Shown: piece after piece, positions 23,281-27,903 of the stretch
Numbering within the stretch: position 1 is the stretch's first letter
How the letters are laid out: every line of letters starts with the position of its first letter
Virus record (IMG/VR): IMGVR_UViG_3300043621_000102
Coordinates: 1-44,629 of that record
Origin: a virus
Strand: one strand, 5' to 3'
DNA length: 44,629 nt
Notes under the pieces: generated by a model
What the model was told of the DNA's origin: nothing
The model's input: only the letters and a program-made list of their open reading frames with translations
Databases searched by the model: none
Program-made: the position numbers and the translations under genes

Positions 23281-25310
23281 CCGACATCAACGACCTGCTG
23301 TTTCTGGATCTGGAAACACGCTCGACCGTCGATTTGCGGAAGACCGGCGCATACGTTTATGCGTCGGACCCTTCCACGACAGTCACCGTTGCCCGCCTGG
23401 CGATCGGCATGGAGGAGCCGTGGGAGTGGCGGCCGGGGCGAGAACTCCTCCCGAAATACCGCGATTACCTGATGAACAACGAAGTTGTCGCCCACAACGC
23501 GCAGTTCGAGCGGCTGCTGATCGAGGGCGTCCTCCACCCGCGCCACGGCTGGCCCCTGGTCGCGATCGATCGTTGGATCTGCACCATGGCCCGCGCCCGC
23601 GCCCAGGCCCTGCCCGCCAGCCTCGATGGGGCGGGGATGGCGCTCGGCTTGCCGATCAAGAAGGATGGCGACGGGTGGCGCCTCATGCTCCAGATGTGCA
23701 AGCCGAGGCGGATGGCGGACGGCTCGCTGGCGTGGTGGGAAGACGAGGACCGCATGGCCCGGTTGAGCGACTATTGCTCGACCGATGTGAAGGTGGAGCG
23801 TCAGGTCTGTCGCTCCACGGCCGCCTTGCCCCAGCCGGAACTAGATGTCTGGGATCTGACTGAGGCCATGAATGACAGAGGTGTGCGGTTCGATCATTCC
23901 TTTGTCCAGGCCGCGCGGATCGTCGCCGAAGAAACCCAGGCCCTGCTCGATAACGATATGCGGCTGCTGACTGTTGGCGTGGTCCGTAAGACTTCCGAGA
24001 TCGGTCTGCTCAAATCGTGGTTGATGAAGCGCGGCGTCGATCTGGCCCCACCTCCCGACCTCGCTCGCGAGGGTGAACTGCTCGATGATCTGGAAGAGGT
24101 CGAACCGGAAGAGGAGGTGATCCCTGATCTCCGCAGGAGGGATGTCCTGCGCCTGATCGCCGATCCCCGCGTGGGGTTGTTGGAGAAGAGTGTTCTCAAG
24201 ACCCGCCTGGAGGCGGGGAAGATATCGGTCAAAAAGCTCTACGCCATCCACGAGCGGTCGAACGCCGACGGCCGCGTGCGGGGTCTGCTCGGCTACCACG
24301 GGGCATCGACCGGCAGATACATCTCGCAAGGGTTGCAGGTGCAGAACTTCCCCCGCGACGTTGTCGCGGACTGGGAGGGCCACCGGGCGCTGCTCGACCA
24401 GGGCGCGGCGATGGTCGATGCCATCGCCGGCCCGCCGCTCGATGTCGTCTCGAAGATGTTGCGCGGCGCGATCATCCCCGCCGAGGGCCACGAGATCGCG
24501 GCGGGCGACTTCGCCTCGGTCGAGGCGGTGGGTGTGGCGTGGCTGGCGGGGCAGGATGATCTGGTCGAGGCGTTCCGCGCGAAGCGGAAAGTCTACGAGG
24601 AGATCGGCGCCAGGGTTTACGGCATCGATCCCGCCACCGTCACCAAGGACAGCCGCGCCCGTTTCGTCGGCAAAACATTGGTGCTTGGCTGCGGCTACCA
24701 GATGGGCTGGCATAAGTTCCGCGAGACCTGCATCGCCCAGGCGAGTGTCCTTCTCGCCCCGGAAGAGGCGGAACGCGCCGTTAACGTCTATCGCGGGACT
24801 TATGCCTGTATCCCGAAACTCTGGAACGACATGAACCAGGCGGCGATCGACGCCGTGCGTCATCCCGGTCAGGCGACGGCGGTGGCGGGCGGGCGCATTC
24901 GGTTTCGGATGGATCGCAAGTGGCTGCGGATGCGCCTGCCGAGTGGACGCTACATCTGGTATTCTCAACCCCTGATCGAAACGGGTCGTTTTGGCAACGA
25001 TTGCGTCTCGTATATGAGTGTTAATTCGCTAACAAAACGATGGGAACGCTGTCAGACCTACGGCGGGCGGCTGACGGAAAACGCCGTGCAGGGTCTGTGC
25101 AGGGATCTTCTTGTTCACGCCGCGCTGCGTCTCGAACGAGAAAACTATCGCCCATTAACCTTGGTCCATGACGAGATTATTTGCGAGCCCCAGATCGGTT
25201 TTGGGAGCGTTGAGGAGATGTGTTCTCTTATGAGCGAGTTGCCTGACTGGGCCTCGGGTTTTCCCCTGAGGGCCGAGGGCTCGCGCGGTCCGAGATATCT
25301 AAAGGGGTGA
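23268..25310 (+). CDS. Family A DNA polymerase with 3'-5' exonuclease
   Basis: 680 residues from GTG 23268-23270; an upstream in-frame start would overlap the tiny membrane gene. The exonuclease begins with LLFLDLETRST (Exo I, Asp-x-Glu). The polymerase part has GRYISQGLQVQNFPRD, motif A AAGDFASVEAVGVAWLAGQ, motif B RFVGKTLVLGCGYQMGW and motif C LTLVHDEIICE near residue 630. It is the replicative enzyme of the phage. The 3' end overlaps the ribbon-helix-helix gene on the other strand by 83 bases. Confidence 0.92.
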   Translation: MGILTDINDLLFLDLETRSTVDLRKTGAYVYASDPSTTVTVARLAIGMEEPWEWRPGRELLPKYRDYLMNNEVVAHNAQFERLLIEGVLHPRHGWPLVAIDRWICTMARARAQALPASLDGAGMALGLPIKKDGDGWRLMLQMCKPRRMADGSLAWWEDEDRMARLSDYCSTDVKVERQVCRSTAALPQPELDVWDLTEAMNDRGVRFDHSFVQAARIVAEETQALLDNDMRLLTVGVVRKTSEIGLLKSWLMKRGVDLAPPPDLAREGELLDDLEEVEPEEEVIPDLRRRDVLRLIADPRVGLLEKSVLKTRLEAGKISVKKLYAIHERSNADGRVRGLLGYHGASTGRYISQGLQVQNFPRDVVADWEGHRALLDQGAAMVDAIAGPPLDVVSKMLRGAIIPAEGHEIAAGDFASVEAVGVAWLAGQDDLVEAFRAKRKVYEEIGARVYGIDPATVTKDSRARFVGKTLVLGCGYQMGWHKFRETCIAQASVLLAPEEAERAVNVYRGTYACIPKLWNDMNQAAIDAVRHPGQATAVAGGRIRFRMDRKWLRMRLPSGRYIWYSQPLIETGRFGNDCVSYMSVNSLTKRWERCQTYGGRLTENAVQGLCRDLLVHAALRLERENYRPLTLVHDEIICEPQIGFGSVEEMCSLMSELPDWASGFPLRAEGSRGPRYLKG

Positions 25311-25440
25311 GCGCCTTTTCGATAAGGGCTCGTAGCCACTCATGGCGAGGTATGTTTCCTCGCGTGGCATCGATGCGCGCCAATGTCCCCCCGGCAACGC
25401 GGACCTGAATTCGTTCTGGAACCGTTAATTTCTTAGCCAT
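25228..25440 (-). CDS. Ribbon-helix-helix DNA-binding protein
   Basis: 70 residues from ATG 25438-25440. KLTVPERIQVRVAGGTLARI forms the ribbon strand, then DATRGNIPRHEWLRALIEKA gives the two helices of an RHH fold. It is divergent from the array locus, and the 60 bases between hold repeated TACGGTATT words, so it is the likely repressor of itself and of the array transcript. The C-terminal tail is short and basic. It overlaps the polymerase 3' end on the opposite strand. Confidence 0.72.
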   Translation of the reverse strand: MAKKLTVPERIQVRVAGGTLARIDATRGNIPRHEWLRALIEKALTPLDISDRASPRPSGENPRPSQATRS

Positions 25441-25450
25441 GAGACAGAAA

Positions 25451-25497
25451 TACGGTATTCGGTATTGACGATCAAGCCTGGAGTGGTATACGGTATT
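25451..25497 (+). promoter_or_regulatory. Predicted array promoter with repeated TACGGTATT operator-like sites
   Basis: TTGACG at 25465-25470, a 16-base spacer and TATACG at 25487-25492 give a plus-strand promoter whose start falls near 25499. TACGGTATT occurs at 25451-25459 and 25489-25497, with CGGTATT at 25460-25466, so these words flank and overlap both promoter boxes. This is a typical arrangement for a repressor, here most simply the divergent RHH protein. Confidence 0.55.
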
Positions 25498-25500
25498 TTT

Positions 25501-25519
25501 CTTGGCGTGGTGCGCCAAG
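25501..25519 (+). ncRNA. Hairpin at the predicted 5' end of the array transcript
   Basis: CTTGGCG (25501-25507) and CGCCAAG (25513-25519) form a perfect seven-base stem with loop TGGTG. It begins one or two bases after the predicted start site and is followed nine bases later by the first array units. A 5' hairpin could protect or nucleate a protein on the array RNA (inference). Confidence 0.45.
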
Positions 25520-25528
25520 GATGGCTGA

Positions 25529-25857
25529 GGCCGGGGCAGGGCCGGGGCAGGGCCGGGGCAGGGCCGGGGCAGGGCCGGGCAGGGTTGGGTTTGGTCTGGT
25601 TCGGCGGGGTAAGCCGGGGCAGGGCCTGGTAGGGTCGGGCAAGGTCAGGTTTGGCCGGGTTCGGCAAGGCATGGCGCGGTTAGCCCTGGTGAGATTAGGC
25701 GCGGTCTGGTTGGGCAAGGCGCGGCAGGGCGCGGTTGGGTTGAGTACGGCCTGGCAGGGCCAGGCAGGCATAGGTGAGGCGCGGTAAGGCCAGGTTTGGT
25801 TTGCCAGGGTGTGGCTTGGTTTGGCCCGGCCTGGTGCGGTGCGGTTTGGTGTGGCTT
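25529..25857 (+). repeat. GGYNN pentanucleotide array 1
   Basis: The array opens with four copies of an 11-base unit GGCCGGGGCAG (25529-25572), which is GGCCG, an extra G, then GGCAG. From 25573 to 25857 there are 57 strict five-base steps; by hand count 51 carry GGC or GGT at the start and the other two positions vary freely. The few exceptions are single-base changes such as GCC or GAT, and none shifts the register. It ends 16 bases before the ATG of the Cas7-like gene, so it would be its 5' untranslated region. Frames through it are by-products of the composition. Confidence 0.85.
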
Positions 25858-25873
25858 CTTTTAGGAACGAGCA

Positions 25874-26491
25874 ATGAACAAAGTTGTCAAAGTAAATGAT
25901 GATGTAACGAATGGCGGTCAGGCGTCGGTTGAAACGGAGCTGCCCTACACGGCGACCGTGAAAATAAGAGGGACGAGTGACGTTCTGTTTCACAGATGGA
26001 ACGCTGACGCCGTCGATACCAAGGCGAAGGCGGCGAAAAACAGCGCCGCCAAGAAGACCGACGATGTCGAGTCTTATGTCTACCGGGACGAGAAGGGAAT
26101 GATTTGCATCCCAGGGGAGTATCTTCGCGGAGCGATCATTCTCGCCAGTAAGTTTCGGCAAGACCCCCGCAGCCCGCGAAAAAGCGCCATGGATTTATTC
26201 AAGGCGGCGGTTGTCTCCCTGACACCACTGGCTTCTCTGGGCACGAAATCATGGGATTACGAGGATCGTCGTCGGGTCGTTATTCAGCGTTCCGGGATCA
26301 ACAGGATCCGTCCCGCCATGCGTACTGGTTGGACGTGTGAGTTTCGTTTTCTCGTCACGCTTCCAGAATATGTCAGCCAGGATCTCCTCCTGGAGGTTAC
26401 ATCTCTCGCTGGCAGGATCGGCGGGGTTGGTGATTTTAGACCAACATATGGACGATTTGCAGTTGTCAGCTTCAAAGTTTCCGAAGCATGA
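25874..26491 (+). CDS. Cas7/RAMP-like phage protein embedded between GGYNN arrays
   Basis: 205 residues with AGGA upstream. A beta strand (YTATVKIRGTSDVLFHRW) is followed by a Lys/Ala-rich helix (VDTKAKAAKNSAAKKTDD), then ICIPGEYLRGAIILASKF, KSAMDLFKAAVVSLTPL, YEDRRRVVIQRSGI and a closing GRIGGVGDFRPTYGRFAVVS. IPGEYLRGAI recalls the IPGSSLKGA motif of Csm3/Cmr4, and the final Gly-rich loop recalls the RAMP G-loop; size and strand order also fit. Homologues occur in phages as hypothetical proteins. There is no other Cas gene here. RNA binding is therefore a hypothesis. Arrays flank it on both sides. Confidence 0.7.
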   Translation: MNKVVKVNDDVTNGGQASVETELPYTATVKIRGTSDVLFHRWNADAVDTKAKAAKNSAAKKTDDVESYVYRDEKGMICIPGEYLRGAIILASKFRQDPRSPRKSAMDLFKAAVVSLTPLASLGTKSWDYEDRRRVVIQRSGINRIRPAMRTGWTCEFRFLVTLPEYVSQDLLLEVTSLAGRIGGVGDFRPTYGRFAVVSFKVSEA

Positions 26492-26502
26492 TAAAAATAC
26501 AC

Positions 26503-27027
26503 GGCCTGGAAAGGTCTGGCCCGGTTAGGCGTGCCGGGGCCGGGTAAGGTTCGGTCCGGTTTGGTGCGGTATGGTCCGCGTTTTAACGAAACGGAACCAG
26601 TCGTTCCGTTTCTTTAAGGCGCGGTTAGCTTCGGCGTGGCTCGCCATGGCCGGCATGGGCATGATTTGCTTAGGTTGGGTCCGGCACGGTCCTATGTGGC
26701 GTGGCCTGGCGTGGTGTGGCCTGCCCCGGCATGGCGGGGTGGGGCGGGGTAAGGCACGGCTCGGTCAGGTATGGCGTGGCGGGATTCGGCTAGCCGTGGT
26801 TTGGCGCGGTGTGGCAAGGCTGGGTCAGGTGGGGTTCGGTGTGGCATGGCAAGGTGGGGTCCGCCCCGGCGTGGTTTGGCGTGGTCTGGTGTGGTTAGCC
26901 ACGGTTTGACGCGGTCCGGTGAGGTTGGGCATGGCAAGCTATGGCAAGGTGGGGTCCGCCCCGGTGTGGTGTGCTCGGGCAGGGCACGGCGTGGCAGGGT
27001 CCGCTCTGGTGGGGCAAGGTATGGTAG
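26503..27027 (+). repeat. GGYNN pentanucleotide array 2
   Basis: Starting 12 bases after the Cas7-like gene stop, 105 five-base steps run to 27027 in one unbroken register. By hand count 79 begin GGC or GGT; eight of the exceptions are the embedded hairpin, the rest are mostly one-base changes such as GCC and GCT. Some longer words recur (for example GGCAAGGTGGGGTCCGCCCC at 26848 and 26943), suggesting local duplication in multiples of five. Array 1 is in the same phase modulo five. Long frames on both strands here are artefacts. Confidence 0.85.
26588..26615 (+). terminator. Hairpin embedded in array 2 (possible terminator)
   Basis: GAAACGGAAC (26588-26597), loop CAGTC, and GTTCCGTTTC (26603-26612) form a perfect ten-base stem followed by TTT. 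The insert replaces eight pentamer positions without changing the register. It may end or protect the transcript of the Cas7-like gene; the T run is short, so termination would be weak. Confidence 0.5.
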
Positions 27028-27038
27028 GGGCCTTTGGT

Positions 27039-27230
27039 ATGATGGTCCCGGATCTCTTGAACACGTTGCGCCGCCGGATTGAGGAACTGGAGTTGCTTGT
27101 ACAGGATCTGGAGCGCCAGAATGAGTGGCTACGAACACAAACACAGAGGGAAACACACGATGAAACAATTGTTGATGACCACGGCCATCATCACCGGGGC
27201 GCTGTTTTTTCAGCCAACGGCCCGCGCTGA
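27039..27230 (+). CDS. Small coiled-coil protein
   Basis: 63 residues beginning just after array 2, with AGGGG eight or so bases upstream. The N-terminal half is a strong leucine coiled coil (PDLLNTLRRRIEELELLVQD, then LERQNEWLRTQTQ); the rest overlaps the PEP-CTERM gene in another frame and is His-rich. It may be a genuine small protein or only a leader. I recognise no family. Confidence 0.4.
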   Translation: MMVPDLLNTLRRRIEELELLVQDLERQNEWLRTQTQRETHDETIVDDHGHHHRGAVFSANGPR

Positions 27231-27903
27231 CATCATCTCGACGCTGGGTTACACGGCCAACGCCAATACCTCGGCGCTGTCGCTGATCGCGGTGCCACCT
27301 CCAGGGAACCAGCCGTTGAATACCCCCTGCCTCATCTGCGGCACGAACCAACCGCAGCAGCCGGTTGGGTTCGGCTATAACAACTACCAGCAGGGCGGCA
27401 ACCAGACGCTGTTCAGCGATTTCTCCTCGGCGACCACCACGACCCTGGGCGAAGACACGCAGGGCACGCCATATCTGGTCAGCTTCCTACGGGCGTTCCT
27501 CATCTCGCAACTGGACCTGAATGGCCAGTTGAACGTCGGCATCGACGTGAATACCGCCACGGGCGCGGGGCCTGAAGTGCTGCAACGCTTCGTCGTGCTT
27601 GATGTCGTCAACAAGACGATCCTCGCTGACTACAACCCGGCCGGCGGCACGCCGCTGCCGACCGCGAATAACGGCACCGGCTTCCCGGACTACGTGCTGA
27701 GCGGCTTCAACATCGACCGGAACGATCTGTCGCCCAACAGCCAGATCGAATTCTACGCCCGATGGAGCAACGCATCGGATGGCGCTGAGAGCTTCTTCCT
27801 GGTCCCCGTTCCAGGGCAGCAGGACGTGCCGGAGCCCGCCTCGCTGGCGGTGCTTGGTATGGGGCTGCTTGGACTCGGCATGGTGAAGCGCCGCCGGGCC
27901 TGA
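27160..27903 (+). CDS. PEP-CTERM exported protein
   Basis: 247 residues from ATG 27160-27162, with AGAGGG nine bases upstream. A signal peptide (MKQLLMTTAIITGALFFQ, then ARA cleavage) leads to a beta-rich, Thr/Asn/Gly-rich domain, and the C-terminus is a complete PEP-CTERM sorting tail: VPEPASLAVLGMGLLGLGMV followed by KRRRA. In bacteria such tails are cut by exosortase and the proteins sit in the exopolysaccharide matrix. No exosortase is in the window, so the host must supply it. It is probably a lysogeny-independent moron that alters the host surface (inference). Confidence 0.88.
   Translation: MKQLLMTTAIITGALFFQPTARADIISTLGYTANANTSALSLIAVPPPGNQPLNTPCLICGTNQPQQPVGFGYNNYQQGGNQTLFSDFSSATTTTLGEDTQGTPYLVSFLRAFLISQLDLNGQLNVGIDVNTATGAGPEVLQRFVVLDVVNKTILADYNPAGGTPLPTANNGTGFPDYVLSGFNIDRNDLSPNSQIEFYARWSNASDGAESFFLVPVPGQQDVPEPASLAVLGMGLLGLGMVKRRRA

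Follow-up and report, generated by a model that had tools for sequence, protein, structure and literature searches.

The locus at positions 25,311 to 27,039 of the window (the whole stretch of DNA analysed, an IMG/VR phage contig of 44,629 bases, 44.6 kb) is a member of VIPR (Viral Interference Programmable Repeat), which was described in 2026 and combines a phage RAMP protein with GGY/NN guide RNAs (PMC13142463, bioRxiv 2026.04.26.720920), and we consider it very probable that it is a phage-borne cassette whose guides direct the binding and silencing of genes in rival phages. In the published system, which occurs mainly in phages and has a Vipr protein with an RRM core, a G-loop and a thumb, vrRNAs of 9-16 YNNGG repeats ending in a structured 3' tail read double-stranded DNA, one target base (usually the codon wobble base) is skipped per NN, the system is aimed at competing phages and at other VIPR loci, and seven types with several array layouts, including staggered and ribozyme-interspersed ones, are distinguished (PMC13142463). 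An earlier note on this DNA had seen a Cas7/RAMP-like gene between two GGYNN pentamer arrays and had known no named system for the combination; that last statement does not hold, as VIPR has the same architecture and includes a homologue of the protein, SUSP1 Vipr. Since the gene and the arrays match VIPR, the note had rediscovered what had been published a short time earlier. What the present analysis adds is an independent test of the skip code on data that had been picked in ignorance of the preprint, three guide readings that provide concrete guide-target pairs, and an empty site. The features of the locus are as follows.

25228..25443, minus strand: divergent 71-aa gene, ribbon-helix-helix-like by eye; its 3' end overlaps polA
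25311..27039, plus strand: whole VIPR cassette, 1.73 kb, missing from relative L205
25450..25497, plus strand: operator/promoter-like region, with ATACGGTATT at 25450 and 25488, TTGACG at 25465 and GTATAC at 25486
25502..25519, plus strand: hairpin TTGGCGTGGTGCGCCAAG at the presumed transcript 5' end, z -2.3
25568..25857, plus strand: array 1, 52 GGY in 58 pentamers
25613..25662, plus strand: polA guide, read in reverse, xNN giving D R K W L R L R L P of phage DNA polymerase A
25874..26491, plus strand: vipr gene, 205 aa, RAMP protein with G-loop GVGDFRPTYGRF (phrog_4652, PDB 36pp, AF2/Foldseek)
26498..26557, plus strand: anti-vipr guide, read in reverse, xNN giving GDFRPTYGRFSV of the Vipr G-loop
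26503..26577, plus strand: array 2a, 13 GGY in 15 pentamers
26578..26622, plus strand: strong hairpin separating array 2a from array 2b, -24.6 kcal/mol, z -6.5
26618..27027, plus strand: array 2b, 66 GGY in 82 pentamers
26708..26757, plus strand: helicase guide, read forward, xNN giving V V L P M G G G K T of the Walker A motif

The Vipr protein

The 205-residue protein had no match in Pfam and matched PHROG 4652 (E 2e-16), a family listed as of unknown function that serves as a label only. In tblastn, Phage DSL-LC04 matched at 63%, and SUSP-type phages, phiSUSP1 among them, gave weak matches (SUSP1 E 7e-4), while a profile built from 41 homologues matched one solved structure, PDB 36pp, the 'SUSP1 Vipr protein' (E 1.1e-12), with about 27% identity over the matched part. 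The AlphaFold2 model (pLDDT 85.5, pTM 0.78) had Csm3 and type VII Cas7 subunits as its top Foldseek matches (E 4e-7, TM about 0.5, 11-18% sequence identity), which bears out the Cas7/RAMP-like assignment made previously, and the protein carries the invariant G-loop motif GVGDFRPTYGR. The locus resembles type III and type VII CRISPR-Cas in the predicted RRM-based RAMP fold of its protein, but differs from them in that the window holds no CRISPR repeats or spacers, Cas10, Cas6 or adaptation genes. A search for a CRISPR repeat-spacer array and further cas genes found none, the neighbours being polA, an ssDNA-binding protein and a helicase. The likeness to VIPR (SUSP1, the P. fulva type II and six other types; PMC13142463) extends from the single phage RAMP protein homologous to SUSP1 Vipr to the flanking noncoding GGY/NN tandem repeats and to targets in competing phages and in further VIPR loci that are specified by NN and read in codon frame with a one-nucleotide skip.

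The GGYNN arrays and their association with vipr

The two arrays flanking the gene (25568-25857 and 26503-27027) are real: the GGY autocorrelation at lag 5 was 49 in 25500-25870 and 60 in 26490-27040, with echoes at lags 10 and 15, as opposed to counts of 0-8 at other, non-harmonic lags, in the vipr coding sequence and in a control stretch. On both strands of the rest of the window, nowhere were there more than four lag-5 GGY pairs per 200 nt. Array 1 is close to the about 57 pentamers first estimated; the figure of about 105 for the second array counts the hairpin inside. The arrays do share one pentamer register, as had been claimed; however, the same register was found in 8 of 24 related loci with arrays on both sides, near the expectation of about 1 in 5, and hence is probably a coincidence.

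Unlike the tailed units of about 100 nt in the published VIPR, the arrays here are long and contiguous (58 and 15+82 pentamers) with a single hairpin; the 15-pentamer segment is followed by the strong hairpin, possibly a guide-RNA tail or a terminator, and the 82-pentamer stretch has no internal tails. If packed, possibly overlapping guides of 10-12 pentamers without tails are truly used, this would represent a further VIPR variant. GCYNN pentamers were considered as borders of units and rejected, being located inside matched guides, where their NN still fits. An Rfam search at the locus gave no match. An 11-nt tandem repeat (11-mer x5, 25529-25584) precedes array 1, and array 2b contains a diverged internal duplication of 95 nt (26796-26970) that suggests duplication of a guide block.

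The lag-5 test was extended to homologous loci, and an array was found within 600 nt of vipr in 94 of the 99 loci with usable flank. The five array-less loci comprise three without sequence on one side (L024, L070, L098) and two with full flanks (L025, L102). The same detector found arrays at the SUSP1 locus (L072) and only one array in 1.89 Mb strand-bases of control DNA from polA relatives.

Several of these loci show layouts of their own. The arrays at L013 (2480-2569), L014, L018 and L020 (3300-3398) are interspersed with structured spacers of about 85 nt that adopt a three-way-junction fold in which stem sequences change and pairing is kept; these have no Rfam match and are candidates for a ribozyme or processing element. 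In L051 (3161-3214), L052 and L069, near-identical 54-nt hairpin spacers, also without Rfam match, separate the arrays. A Type-P5 twister ribozyme (Rfam RF02684) lies on the minus strand upstream of the VIPR locus in L022 (407-483). Finally, the near-identical sister loci L001 (2877-2986) and L003 (2780-2984) differ by pentamer blocks swapped or added, so that guide content changes in modules.

The one-nucleotide skip rule

For the skip-rule test, every window of 10 pentamers in the arrays of about 100 loci (n=3965) was compared on both strands, at a threshold of at least 18/20, with phage and host DNA totalling 0.96 Mb in which arrays had been masked. Skipping one base gave 378 matches, as opposed to 18, 8, 9 and 14 for skips of 0, 2, 3 and 4, and 22, 14 and 16 for shuffled NN orders; the 378 matches are non-independent and inflated, many of them representing one guide of the window against many homologous vipr genes that share the motif. 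With the window's arrays and 2.5 Mb of related phage DNA, there were 248 matches at skip 1, none at other skips and 0-3 after shuffling. Guides from other loci matched related phages in codon frame as well, at 18-19/20: those of L023 and L078 a DUF669 gene, those of L082 and L086 a DEAD helicase, and that of L090 an AAA ATPase. For five other source loci, guides reached at best 13-16/20 within their own locus or contig (covered only in part for some) vs. 18-19/20 in other phages, as expected for guides aimed at others. As judged from sequence, the GGY/NN code with a one-nucleotide skip appears to hold in this distant Vipr clade.

Guides read in the window

The polA guide matches the phage's own polA (24912) at 17/20; from this self match a better match in a relative was expected beforehand, and it was found in L198 (19/20), where similarity drops sharply to either side of the matching stretch. 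In a scan of the larger contigs of 12 relatives, polA was the only clear signal besides vipr. The helicase guide matches a phage helicase in L105 at 19/20 and those of L013/L018 at 18/20, and the phage's own SNF2 helicase, aligned at Walker A, at only 15/32 over 16 codons, its protein sequence being different there. The anti-vipr guide matches, over its ten-codon core GDFRPTYGRF, the vipr genes of L010, L035, L036, L038 and L039 at 20/20 and, over twelve codons, those of the sister loci L001-L004 at 23/24, compared with 18/20 (core) and 20/24 (twelve codons) for its own vipr.

Searches of viral contigs for exact patterns found none for the 11-dinucleotide helicase pattern, the 12-codon vipr pattern or the full 10-codon polA pattern, and one phage helicase for a shorter helicase pattern of 9 dinucleotides; two patterns for unread segments gave 2 and 0 matches, 2 being about the chance expectation. 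Most of the array sequence (25668-25857, 26618-26707, 26758-27027) had no target in the DNA scanned. A tail-gene target in L200 (17/20, motif TGGPFM) was dropped as not above chance. Collectively, these readings suggest that the guides aim at the most conserved codons of phage replication genes and of rival vipr, from which the phage's own copies differ by a few bases. If the system tolerates two or three mismatches, the self matches of 17-18/20 (polA, vipr) could do harm.

At the G-loop target, wobble changes cannot help, and only the arginine codons (CGN or AGR) give synonymous mismatches. The phage's own vipr has AGA where the guide calls for CGN, and CGA where it calls for AGN, i.e., a mismatching arginine codon at both positions, and self and non-self would thus differ by arginine codons. 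It is intriguing to hypothesize that a single guide serves as a general weapon against rival VIPR through the invariant G-loop, with self told apart from non-self by arginine codon choice, a proposal that we put forward tentatively and at somewhat less than even confidence. Counting the window's own gene, 17 of 100 vipr genes have the AGA/CGA combination, and therefore codon escape alone is not statistically striking.

Mode of action and alternative explanations

Most likely, the phage expresses Vipr and the array RNA. Vipr would then bind the RNA of both arrays, probably with one subunit on each GGYNN pentamer; the RNA would be held by the GGY triplets, and the two N of each pentamer would pair with DNA, with one target base, usually the wobble base, skipped per NN pair. 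About 10-12 pentamers would form one readable guide, and the competitor's DNA polymerase, helicase or rival VIPR (via the invariant G-loop) would be bound and silenced. We infer RNA processing, RNP assembly, subunit spacing and transcriptional repression at this locus by analogy with the published system (PMC13142463).

Alternatively, the array RNA might be only a scaffold on which Vipr polymerises as a filament or decoy, with no target information in the NN. RAMP proteins do polymerise on RNA at a fixed step, and the strongly kept GGY next to variable NN would be in line with such a role; yet the NN strings match conserved phage codons only with a one-nucleotide skip and in codon frame, and other skips and shuffles fail, making this explanation highly improbable. 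Of the forms first proposed for the assembly (filament, decoy or guide-like particle), it is thus the guide-like particle that agrees with the data, and the arrays are more than an assembly template, since the NN carry target information. It is hardly credible that the arrays are simple-sequence or low-complexity DNA produced by slippage and unrelated to the gene, as the short direct duplications (the 11-mer x5 and the 95-nt copies) might indicate, given that GGY is fixed over 154 slots while NN is variable with decodable targets; the association of arrays with 94 of 99 vipr loci and their near absence elsewhere refute it.

A VIPR relic or self-regulation, with the anti-vipr guide autoregulating the phage's own vipr and the polA guide tuning its own polymerase, would account for the self matches (18/20 and 17/20, respectively). 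However, rival vipr (20/20) and rival polA (19/20) match better, and the five other source loci likewise favor other phages over their own sequences, so we consider self-regulation unlikely. Hence, we favor the hypothesis that the guides are directed against competing phages.

The cassette, its regulation and its neighbours

In L205, position 25310 of the window is joined to about 27040 (TGATGG) and the 1.73 kb in between are missing; at this empty site the TGA stop of polA and the start codon (ATG) of the following gene overlap. Further, vipr was not found in any of the polA relatives searched (12/12). VIPR is thus shown to be an exchangeable cassette here, with an empty allele in close relatives.

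At the left end, the divergent gene had been called an RHH gene and placed next to a promoter. The RHH look stands by eye, with only a weak family match (a PHROG repressor, phrog_4738, E 0.02); similarly, the promoter (TTGACG/GTATAC between two ATACGGTATT repeats) is plausible by eye, but a consensus scan made no call. The hairpin noted at the predicted start is present. A 69-aa divergent ORF of similar look occurs at the equivalent position in L001. The divergent gene is a candidate accessory or repressor gene, and no clear accessory (vap) gene was found at the locus besides it; together with the ATACGGTATT repeats, it suggests that the cassette may be regulated. Upstream of the site are genes for DNA polymerase A, an Enc34-type ssDNA-binding protein, a DUF2800/exonuclease-like protein and the SNF2 helicase, and directly downstream of the cassette (27163-27903) is a PEP-CTERM motif protein (Pfam E 2e-6), which is unusual for a phage.
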